Positions 17,038-44,812 of a DNA stretch of 64,000 nt are shown one piece after another (positions within the stretch are counted from its first letter, which is position 1; every line of letters starts with the position of its first letter). The translations under genes were made by a program, and so were the position numbers. Origin of the DNA: Blastocatellia bacterium (GTDB lineage Bacteria; Acidobacteriota; Blastocatellia; Pyrinomonadales; Pyrinomonadaceae); the NCBI GenBank assembly GCA_003168335.1, contig PMSM01000003.1, forward strand, positions 1-64,000, written 5' to 3'. The notes under the pieces are model-generated. The model was not told the origin of the DNA and did not search any database. It was given only the letters and a program-made list of their open reading frames with translations.

Positions 17038-17109
17038 CCGCTTTTATACCAGTCAAGAAAGCACATTCAGCCGTCCGCTTCACGGACTCATTTTGATTGA
17101 TAGGTATCG

Positions 17110-17236
17110 TTCCCAGCGATGAATCGCTGGGCTGTTTTCGTTCGTCCGCTGCGCGGACTGCGTCCTTCCTAACGGTCGGACTACTGCCCCGGACCCACGG
17201 GAACCCTCCCTCACGGTCGGGCTACTGCCACGTAGC
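17110..17236. repeat. Composite palindromic element near S9 peptidase 3' end
   Basis: The left half (CCCAGCGATGAATCGCTGGG, then GTTTTCGTTCGTCC) matches the arms of the inverted element at 43714-43993. The right half contains two copies of CGGTCGGxCTACTGCC, related to 6992-7017 and 31222-31249. It lies downstream of the S9 gene and may serve as a transcript end. Confidence 0.65.
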
Positions 17237-42479: not shown

Positions 42480-43685
42480 ATGCTAGTCCTAATCGCAGAC
42501 AAATTCGAACCAGCGGGCCGCGATGGCTTGCAGGTGATCGGGTGCGAAGTTTCGTTTCAGCCTGATCTGAAAGACGAGGCCCTGGTCGAAGCGATCGCTA
42601 AGCACCAGCCTGATGTGCTGGTTGTGCGCGGCACGAAAGTCACCGAACCGATGCTGGCGGCCGGGCCTCTGAAGCTGATCGTGCGCGCGGGCGCCGGCTA
42701 TAATACGATCGACGTGGCCGCCGCATCGCGCCGCGGGATTTATGTTTCCAACTGTCCCGGCAAAAATTCGATCGCGGTCGCCGAGTTGGCCTTCGCGCTG
42801 ATCCTCGCACTCGATCGCCGCATCGCTGACAACGTGATCGCTTTGCGCGCAGGACAATGGAACAAGAAAGAATTCTCGAAAGCGCGCGGATTGTTTGGGC
42901 GGACGTTGGGGTTAGTGGGCTTGGGGAAGATTAGTCAGGAGATGATTCCGCGCGCCAGAGCTTTCGGTATGCCGGTCGTAGCGTGGAGCCGAAGTCTAAC
43001 CAACGAAAAGGCCACTGAGTTGGGTGTCGAAAAAATGGAAACGCCGCTCGATGTCGCCCGAGCCGCGGACATCGTCAGTGTTCATGTCGCGCTCAACCCT
43101 GATACGCGCATGTTGATTGGCTCCGACTTTTTCAAAGCGATGCGCGAGGGCGCTTATCTCATCAACACTTCGCGCGGTGACGTTCTCGATCAAACGGCGC
43201 TGGTCGAAGCAATTAAGTCGAAAGGCATTCGCGCGGGACTCGATGTGTTCGCGATTGAACCGACTTCCGCCGTGGCGGAATTCACCGATCCGATCGCGAA
43301 AGAAGCGAGCGTTTACGGCACGCATCACATCGGTGCTTCGACCGACCAGGCGCAGGAAGCCATCGCCGCTGAGACAGTCCGCATCATTCAATCATTCAAA
43401 GAAACCGGCCAGGTGCCGAACGTGGTGAATCTGGCGCAGCGTACGCCGGCGACGCACCGTCTGGTGGTGCGTCATCGTGATCGGCCGGGCGTCTTGGCGC
43501 AGGTGCTCGACGCGATCAAAGCCGAACAGATCAACGTGCAGGAGATGGAGAACATCGTCTTCGAAGGCGCCGAAGCCGCGGTCGCGCGAATTAATCTGGA
43601 TAAGGCACCGTCGCCGGCGACCTTGGATCGGCTGCGCGGATCGAACCCCGATATTATTGAATTGAACGTACTGGAAATAAGTTAG
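42480..43685 (+). CDS. serA: D-3-phosphoglycerate dehydrogenase
   Basis: SerA oxidises 3-phosphoglycerate to 3-phosphohydroxypyruvate, the first step of serine synthesis. The 401-residue protein has the substrate domain 'LIVRAGAGYNTIDVAAASRR', the NAD-binding 'LGLVGLGKISQEMIPRA', 'ADIVSVHVALNPDTRMLIG' and 'LINTSRGDVLDQTALVEAI'. A C-terminal ACT domain (about residues 325-401, 'LVVRHRDRPGVLAQVLDAIK') suggests serine feedback. serC follows 1.2 kb downstream. Confidence 0.93.
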   Translation: MLVLIADKFEPAGRDGLQVIGCEVSFQPDLKDEALVEAIAKHQPDVLVVRGTKVTEPMLAAGPLKLIVRAGAGYNTIDVAAASRRGIYVSNCPGKNSIAVAELAFALILALDRRIADNVIALRAGQWNKKEFSKARGLFGRTLGLVGLGKISQEMIPRARAFGMPVVAWSRSLTNEKATELGVEKMETPLDVARAADIVSVHVALNPDTRMLIGSDFFKAMREGAYLINTSRGDVLDQTALVEAIKSKGIRAGLDVFAIEPTSAVAEFTDPIAKEASVYGTHHIGASTDQAQEAIAAETVRIIQSFKETGQVPNVVNLAQRTPATHRLVVRHRDRPGVLAQVLDAIKAEQINVQEMENIVFEGAEAAVARINLDKAPSPATLDRLRGSNPDIIELNVLEIS

Positions 43686-43713
43686 ACGTAATCAAAAAAG
43701 TGATTGACTCTTA

Positions 43714-43993
43714 AGTCCCGCAGGGACGAACGAAAATAGCCCAGCGATTTATCGCTGGGTAGCGGCGCAAAAAAAAAGGAGCGGCAAGTTCCGTCAGGGA
43801 CGAAAGGAAAGAACATCACAGGGTCCATTCTTTCAACGATGAATTGATCGCGTTTCTCGAAAAGCACGGAATTTCATATGAACGATGGATGCTTGATTAG
43901 TTCTTTCGTCCCTGTCGGGACTGGTTGTTTCTTTGCCGCATGTCCCCAGCGATAAATCGCTGGGCTATTTTCGGTAGCCCCTAGCGGGGCTAA
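43714..43993. mobile_element. Inverted palindromic pair enclosing a transposase remnant
   Basis: The left arm (43714-43806) and right arm (43903-43993) are long inverted copies. Both contain AATAGCCCAGCGATTTATCG and a CAGGGACGAAAG end. Between them lies the 3' end of an IS200/RAYT-like transposase gene, whose stop codon is 2 bp from the right arm. The structure is a decayed REP-type element with its own enzyme remnant. Confidence 0.7.
43811..43900 (+). pseudogene. C-terminal remnant of IS200/RAYT-like Y1 transposase
   Basis: The frame reads 'EHHRVHSFNDELIAFLEK' then 'HGISYERWMLD' and stops. This matches the last ~29 residues of Y1 (HUH) transposases of the IS200/REP-associated type, whose C-termini read like 'QEEHHR..SF.DE...FL..H.I.YDERY.W'. 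The catalytic HUH motif and Tyr lie upstream in intact proteins and are absent here. No start codon is present. Confidence 0.65.
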
Positions 43994-44029
43994 AATGATG
44001 TTCACTTAGCGACTGTCGATGTGAAATTC

Positions 44030-44812
44030 ATGAACACCACCCTCATCACCGGCGCGTCTTCAGGCATTGGCGAGGTGTTTGCCCGCAGGCTCGCCGCGGG
44101 CGGGCATAGTCTTCTGCTCGTCGCGCGATCAGAGGAAAAGCTGATCAATCTCTGCAATGAACTGGGACGAATCAAGAGCACTCGCGCGCAGTACGTCGCC
44201 ATGGATCTTTCGGAACGGGATGCACCGGCGCGCCTGTTTGAAGAAACACAAAAGCGCGGGTTGGAGATCGACTTTTTAATCAACAACGCCGGCTTTGGTT
44301 CGATGGGTGACTTCGCCAAGCTCGATCCCCAGCGCGAGCTGGACATGATCGACTTGAACGTGCGCTCGCTGGTAGAGTTGACGCATCGTTTTCTCGTCCC
44401 TATGCGAGAAAGAAAGAGCGGCTCGATCATCAACGTCGCTTCGACCGCCGGATTTCAGCCCGTGCCTTTCATGGCCACGTACGCCGCGACGAAAGCGTTC
44501 GTGCTGTCGTTTTCCGAAGCGCTGTGGGAAGAGAACCGGCCGCATGGCGTGAAAGTGATGGCGCTCTGCCCTGGCGTTACCGATACAAATTTTTTCGAGG
44601 CTTCAAGGATGCAAAGACCACCCGCCCGCATTTCACAAACGGCCGCAGACGTGGTGGACACGGCCTTGCGCGGCCTGGCCCGCGGGAAGAGTTCGGTGAT
44701 TTCGGGATGGACGAATTTCCTGATGGTCGAGTCTGAACGCCTGGCGCCGCGCTCATTAGTTTTACGCACGGCGGGAATGGTTTTGCGGAAAACGGTTGGC
44801 GGCAAAGAGTAA
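44030..44812 (+). CDS. Short-chain dehydrogenase/reductase
   Basis: The 260-residue SDR has the NAD(P) motif 'LITGASSGIGEVFARRL', 'FLINNAGFGSMGDF', catalytic Ser in 'GSIINVASTAGFQPV' and the YxxxK pair in 'MATYAATKAFV', followed by 'VMALCPGVTDTNFF'. It belongs to the YqjQ/DltE-like group; substrate unknown. An in-frame GTG lies 9 bp upstream of the chosen ATG. It sits between serA and serC but has no clear role in serine synthesis. Confidence 0.9.
   Translation: MNTTLITGASSGIGEVFARRLAAGGHSLLLVARSEEKLINLCNELGRIKSTRAQYVAMDLSERDAPARLFEETQKRGLEIDFLINNAGFGSMGDFAKLDPQRELDMIDLNVRSLVELTHRFLVPMRERKSGSIINVASTAGFQPVPFMATYAATKAFVLSFSEALWEENRPHGVKVMALCPGVTDTNFFEASRMQRPPARISQTAADVVDTALRGLARGKSSVISGWTNFLMVESERLAPRSLVLRTAGMVLRKTVGGKE

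Follow-up and report, generated by a model that had tools for sequence, protein, structure and literature searches.

In this study, we conclude that the feature at 43713-43992 of the 64-kb stretch of DNA analysed here (the window) is very probably a copy of a Y1 (HUH) transposase element that carries an internal deletion and is catalytically dead, and whose arms are the single-stranded DNA (ssDNA) recognition ends of a REP-like Y1 system. With somewhat less assurance, we propose that Acido-Lenti-1 (RF01687) is probably no RNA gene but the ssDNA end of this phylum-crossing, REP-like Y1 system, which involves transposases of the TnpA subclass 1.2 type. REP- and TIR-associated Y1 systems are already known, and it is the reassignment of the RNA family that is of interest. 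On this proposal, Acido-Lenti-1 gains a concrete identity, and a transposase subclass reported without repeats (PMC6006769) gains its missing cognate repeat. If it is true, hundreds of annotated 'ncRNAs' are mobile-element ends, an orphan transposase subclass has a substrate, and Acido-Lenti-1 ncRNA annotations, together with the regulatory stories built on them, need revision. It would also make available to biochemistry a new pair of Y1 enzyme and hairpin with a conserved three-hairpin grammar.

A transposase remnant at the serA locus

The feature follows serA (42480-43685, +) and precedes an SDR-family gene (44021-44812, +), after which comes serC. Two inverted arms, each with three perfect or near-perfect hairpins in the order A-B-A (A, GTCCC..GGGAC; B, CCCAGCGATNNATCGCTGGG), enclose the last 31 codons of a Y1 transposase, as follows.

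43713-43809, - strand (reads outward): left (upstream) arm, triple hairpin A-B-A; arm model R1 60.3 bits, E 7e-15 in the window; inverted repeats
43714-43759, - strand: match to RF01687 (Acido-Lenti-1), made of hairpin B, CTATTTTCG and the outer hairpin A; 53.5 bits, gathering score 37
43715-43727: outer hairpin A of the left arm, GTCCCGCAGGGAC; read from the sequence
43740-43759: hairpin B of the left arm, CCCAGCGATTTATCGCTGGG; sequence and inverted repeats
43788-43801: inner hairpin A' of the left arm, GTTCCGTCAGGGAC, slightly decayed; read from the sequence
43805-43900, + strand: remnant of a subclass-1.2-like Y1 transposase, last 31 codons and stop; frame, homology and alignment to a congener
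43900-43992, + strand: right (downstream) arm, triple hairpin A-B-A; R1 73.7 bits
43908-43921: inner hairpin A of the right arm, GTCCCTGTCGGGAC, with TTC..TC before it; read from the sequence
43945-43991, + strand: hairpin B of the right arm (43945-43964), CTATTTTC and outer hairpin A (43977-43990); match to Acido-Lenti-1 (RF01687) below threshold, 34.2 bits, gathering score 37

The original prediction read the frame ending at 43900 (RKEHHRVHSFNDELIAFLEKHGISYERWMLD*) as the C-terminus of a Y1 transposase flanked by palindromic inverted arms, and both parts of this reading, with the frame and the coordinates it gave, held up. The 31 residues match the end of a Y1 transposase in a congener (G004) with 74% identity over their full length, and there are many more, weaker matches. 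The arms are evident in the sequence and as inverted repeats, and are recognized in opposite orientations by a model built from foreign genomes. The congener locus is syntenic, with the end of serA, the Y1 element, the same SDR gene and serC, and its Y1 gene is near full-length and, in what is a draft assembly, contains a single frameshift shortly after its start. This gene is flanked by GTCCCGCAGGGAC / CCCAGCGATTTATCGCTGGG / GTCCCTTCAGGGAC upstream and by the inverse order downstream. Since a near-full-length gene with the same hairpins occupies the same serA/SDR locus in the congener, the window copy has undergone a deletion, which in the alignment spans ~355 bp from the ribosome-binding-site region to the His-His that follows the catalytic Tyr. 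This Tyr was lost with it, as were the start and the HUH motif; GAAAGGA, 3' of the inner hairpin A' (43788-43801), lies where the intact relative has its ribosome-binding site. The congener (locus L042) additionally carries an extra small gene (beginning MRVWRLITHHADKDHALF) in the ~480 bp between serA and the Y1 element, which is missing from the window.

The right arm of the window is the top R1 match genome-wide and the left arm ranks 28th among the matches listed. We give next to no credence to the view that the remnant is a chance open reading frame and the arms ordinary intergenic palindromes. The remnant is only 31 codons long and, searched alone against the Pfam models, gives no match, yet an orthologous Y1 gene in the syntenic position shares 74% identity with it, the arms score 60-74 bits with the arm model, and a hairpin-grammar search of ten Markov-shuffled windows returned zero matches; synteny already refutes such a view.

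Near-intact relatives of the remnant match Y1_Tnp (PF01797) at 83-89 bits (cut-off 23), and they carry the motifs YINNQKEHH (Y-I-x-N-Q-x-x-H-H), WQEGY (WQ) and DHVH. The enzyme therefore fits TnpA subclass 1.2 by its motifs Y---Q--HH, WQ and DHxH, on which this assignment is based. Intact relatives score 53.8 with the IS200 model (cut-off 55), and the nearest solved structures are those of the IS608 and ISDra2 TnpA group (2a6m, 2vhg). The original prediction had likened the enzyme to the classical REP/RAYT type, a comparison that has to be given up. A classical RAYT, or a GTAG/CGTC REP, is excluded by the protein motif (Y---Q--HH, not Y---NP), by the score of the NCBI RAYT model NF047646 (20.6 bits for intact relatives, cut-off 80) and by the feet of the hairpins, which are TTCANYC and CTATTNTC and lack the GT[AG]G tetranucleotide (GTAG or GTGG) of RAYT / TnpAREP class 2.

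Arm grammar and gene-arm association across phyla

A collection scan queried with a five-protein alignment yielded 80 related Y1 genes. The record titles name Pyrinomonadaceae, other Acidobacteria, Verrucomicrobia, Planctomycetes, Calditrichaceae, KSB1, Thermodesulfobacteriota, Nitrospirae, Chloroflexi and others, although these names are MAG labels that may be wrong (one reads Klebsiella). The search thus turned up the full-length relatives on which the original prediction depended, and they carry the same flanking hairpins, which bears out its proposal that the dispersed palindromes are tied to a Y1 enzyme. Downstream of the stop codon, the order is TTCANYC, A (at ~+9), a variable linker of 22-26 nt, B (~+45), CTATTNTC and A (~+77). 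Stems of at least 7 bp occur at 1.06 per 130 nt 3' of the stop, compared with 0.10 in background stretches of the same loci. The intact element is a single subclass-1.2-like tnpA gene enclosed by an inverted pair of arms, and each arm is composed of A, a variable linker, B, the conserved unpaired CTATTNTC and A.

The association of gene and arms was followed with R1, a covariance model built from 24 arms of other genomes. At the genes of 77 relatives, R1 detected an upstream arm (-) in 67 cases and a downstream arm (+) in 64; arms were present on both sides, inverted, at 58 of the 77 genes, on at least one side at 73, and on neither side at four. The two B hairpins of one gene differ at 1.06 of eight positions on average, versus 3.08 between genes (0/2000 permutations), and hairpin similarity tracks protein similarity (Mantel r 0.37, 0/2000 permutations). 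Because B hairpins are alike within a gene and hairpin distance follows protein distance, gene and arms evolve together.

Acido-Lenti-1 as part of the arm

Scanning the locus with all Rfam models identified RF01687 on the left arm above its gathering score and on the right arm below it, and all four above-threshold Rfam matches in the 64-kb window belong to this family. There are at least 101 matches above the gathering score genome-wide, and none in 14 control genomes. Of the best 30 loci, 26 have an adjacent partner arm in the opposite orientation (counted by hand). RF01687 also flanks the Y1 gene in most scanned relatives, from Acidobacteria, Verrucomicrobia, Planctomycetes, Calditrichaceae and others, and in the genome of the window it lies within 400 bp of a Y1 gene six times, where 0.18 would be expected. 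In a set of 297 genomes at the Acidobacteriota level, RF01687 and the Y1 gene occur together in 49, RF01687 alone in 18, the gene alone in 17 and neither in 213 (odds ratio 34, p 2e-26, with relatedness ignored). The 18 genomes with RF01687 but without a detected cognate Y1 gene are a counterpoint to this association. In one genome (G259), at least 20 near-identical Acido-Lenti-1 copies were found and the cognate Y1 gene was not detected; this family is possibly orphaned or differently served.

The Acido-Lenti-1 'RNA' is the outer B-A half of a Y1 element arm. The outer B-linker-A half of every good arm is this motif (PMC2864571), mostly above the gathering score; whereas the catalogue has it as a stand-alone sRNA with no known function, it is here half of an element end, and its inverted pairs enclose a Y1 gene or form a gene-less unit. 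The discovery paper (Weinberg et al. 2010, PMC2864571) presents Acido-Lenti-1 as a probable non-cis-regulatory RNA, and a 2026 paper (PMC13298647) describes its function as little known and seeks a regulatory role for it. In the Acido-Lenti-1 literature covered here we found no link to a transposase, and an earlier remark may exist elsewhere. Tandem arrays of the motif also occur: in Desulfococcaceae bacterium HSG8 (L220, 555-2799), ~20 Acido-Lenti-1 copies surround a Y1 gene with a period of ~70 nt, and shorter arrays are present at L217, L246, L239 and L275.

Is the motif nevertheless an RNA? Acido-Lenti-1 could be a true small RNA, or an RNA element resembling a terminator, that was captured by a transposase element or regulates transposase expression. 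Rfam does class RF01687 as 'Gene; sRNA', tnpA has the arms in its 5' and 3' untranslated regions, so that its transcripts would include them, and hairpins 3' of stop codons could act on mRNA ends. We regard this explanation as quite unlikely, given that the motif invariably faces away from the gene or unit on either side, which makes half of its copies antisense to the gene, and given that a genome can hold at least 101 copies, mostly in gene-less inverted units. Pairing in the arms points the same way. Real RNA stems usually pass through and retain G-U pairs, and G-U pairs are nearly absent here: 150 model-aligned arms contain 488 compensatory cells and ~13 G-U pairs among ~2750 paired cells, a scarcity to which the selection of model seeds with Watson-Crick stems adds some bias, although most matches lie far above threshold and could carry G-U pairs. 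In the arm set from the genome of the window, 94.7% of cells pair and 355 are compensatory. A motif that faces outward at both flanks of a gene or unit keeps no fixed orientation with respect to transcription, and this, together with the near-absence of G-U pairs, favours DNA-level rather than RNA-level pairing of the arms.

Known Y1 enzymes recognize folded ssDNA hairpins together with a short unpaired guide and cleave nearby (PMC8266576). TnpAREP, for example, cuts at a CT beside its REP (PMC8266576), and the unpaired foot CTATTNTC begins with CT. By analogy, we infer recognition, binding and cleavage of ssDNA, and mobilisation in trans, by the same chemistry. When single-stranded, as on a replication template, the arms would fold into DNA hairpins, which the Y1 enzyme may recognize along with their conserved unpaired feet, TTCANYC 5' of A and CTATT 3' of B. 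Its tyrosine would then cleave beside the hairpins, allowing the arm-bounded unit to move. Gene-less units could be mobilised in trans and pile up as dispersed inverted two-arm repeats, analogous to REPINs.

Dispersed gene-less units and related systems

R1 finds at least 146 matches in the genome of the window at E up to 0.1; merged with those of RF01687, they amount to at least 197 arms. Neighbouring arms within 200 bp of each other are oriented -/+ in 59 of 60 pairs and ++ in one, and the dispersed pairs are gene-less inverted two-arm units, often with a centre of 0-50 nt. As in REP-like systems in general, the same palindromes therefore flank a gene and recur genome-wide. In the window itself, besides the remnant, arms occur at the following loci.

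17065-17160, + strand: gene-less dispersed arm with A hairpins of the GTCCGC..GCGGAC type and B of the CCCAGCGAT type; R1 54.9 bits, RF01687 40.6 bits
31325-31512: gene-less inverted two-arm unit of another hairpin sequence type, arms adjacent; R1 55.0 bits (-) and 35.8 bits (+), RF01687 44.9 bits
51564-51755: gene-less inverted two-arm unit; R1 46.8 bits (-) and 52.5 bits (+), RF01687 38 bits
57770-57966: two-arm unit with a strong right arm and a decayed left arm; R1 54.4 bits (+) and 16.1 bits (-)

At 17114-17160, where the original prediction placed the same hairpins as in the remnant's arms, hairpin B (CCCAGCGATGAATCGCTGGG) does recur, but the second hairpin, GTCCCGCAGGGAC, is replaced by a different A hairpin, GTCCGCTGCGCGGAC. 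The remnant had also been offered as a source of the repeats, which does not fit, because the dispersed copies have A hairpins of the GTCCGC type. It is excluded as their direct parent by this difference in the A hairpins, and its amplification as a multi-copy MITE that includes the coding piece is likewise excluded, since the genome has a single full copy. Eight further Y1 genes of the genome have arms of the same layout, mostly with other hairpin sequences, and CCCAGCGAT is absent from the arms of all eight. The GTCCGC/CCCAGCGAT units do match the arm of an intact gene in another congener (G002, locus L044), as well as a second deletion remnant in the genome of the window (C4:40670-41280), in which 29 N-terminal and 14 C-terminal residues are joined in frame. 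The direct parent of the GTCCGC family has thus been lost or has decayed in this genome. Y1 genes decay repeatedly, and arms persist. Another Y1 gene of the genome (L029, C9:548416-548760) is broken by one TGA.

The near-identical mobile copies typical of an IS200 insertion sequence were not found among the Y1 genes of this genome, which differ in protein (e.g. 40-43% identity to a reference relative) and in hairpin sequence. The system shares the HUH-Y1 fold with IS200/IS605 (IS608, ISDra2); unlike these, it includes no high-identity multicopy insertion sequence here, and its arms are inverted and multi-hairpin. As in RAYT/REP and REPIN systems (TnpAREP class 2; PMC3116915, PMC8266576), palindromes flank a Y1 gene and also occur dispersed as inverted pairs, unpaired feet are conserved, and gene and repeat evolve together; the system differs from them in its Y1 class, in lacking a GTAG/GTGG foot and in having three perfect hairpins per arm. 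TIRtrons, or TIRYTs (Di Nocera et al. 2013, PMC3733652), likewise place a Y1 gene between long inverted, partly self-complementary repeats, include Acidobacteria and form dispersed TIR families. TIRYTs are mostly of subclass 2.1, with a C-terminal HTH domain and GGGGWSAS repeats (PMC3733652), whereas the relatives studied here are proteins of ~150 aa without that domain and their arms lack that motif. With subclass 1.2 (Quentin et al. 2018, PMC6006769), the system shares Y---Q--HH, WQ, DHxH, a length of ~150 aa, low and divergent copy numbers per genome, and the specific C-terminal extension, the part that survives in the window. That subclass is listed as 'REP: no' (Table 1), without terminal structures, and mostly from Cyanobacteria and Bacteroidetes; the regular A-B-A arms described here, in Acidobacteria, Verrucomicrobia, Planctomycetes and other phyla, depart from this report.

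Another possibility is that unrelated MITEs of the DDE type carry the gene-less repeats, with the Y1 hairpins as mere passengers. A longer outer inverted repeat, GACAAACT..AGGAA.CTCTGATCAAG, is common to seven near-identical units, and at C4:40970-41240 a nested unit has GAGKCCGTGTCAAAACTCAGC at its borders and TAAA on either side. We consider this unlikely as a general account, for units of the GTCCGC type, in which the hairpins are constant while centres and linkers vary among copies, share no sequence beyond the outer A hairpin, and arms are retained with the Y1 gene in many phyla. Part of the spread of the dispersed units may be owed to another transposase, since some young units lie inside longer outer inverted repeats.

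The seven outer-repeat units (L277-L300; C10:303443, C9:67324, C9:156913, C13:276578, C13:536396, C9:233662 and C8:22587) are gene-less and two-armed, occur in both orientations, and are recently amplified composites of a hairpin unit and MITE-like ends. Y1 transposition normally leaves no target duplication. At C4:40950-41250 (L006), a two-arm unit of the GCGCC type with outer repeats GAGKCCGTGTCAAAACTCAGC is inserted in the right hairpin B of the second remnant, flanked on both sides by TAAA as if a 4-bp target had been duplicated.
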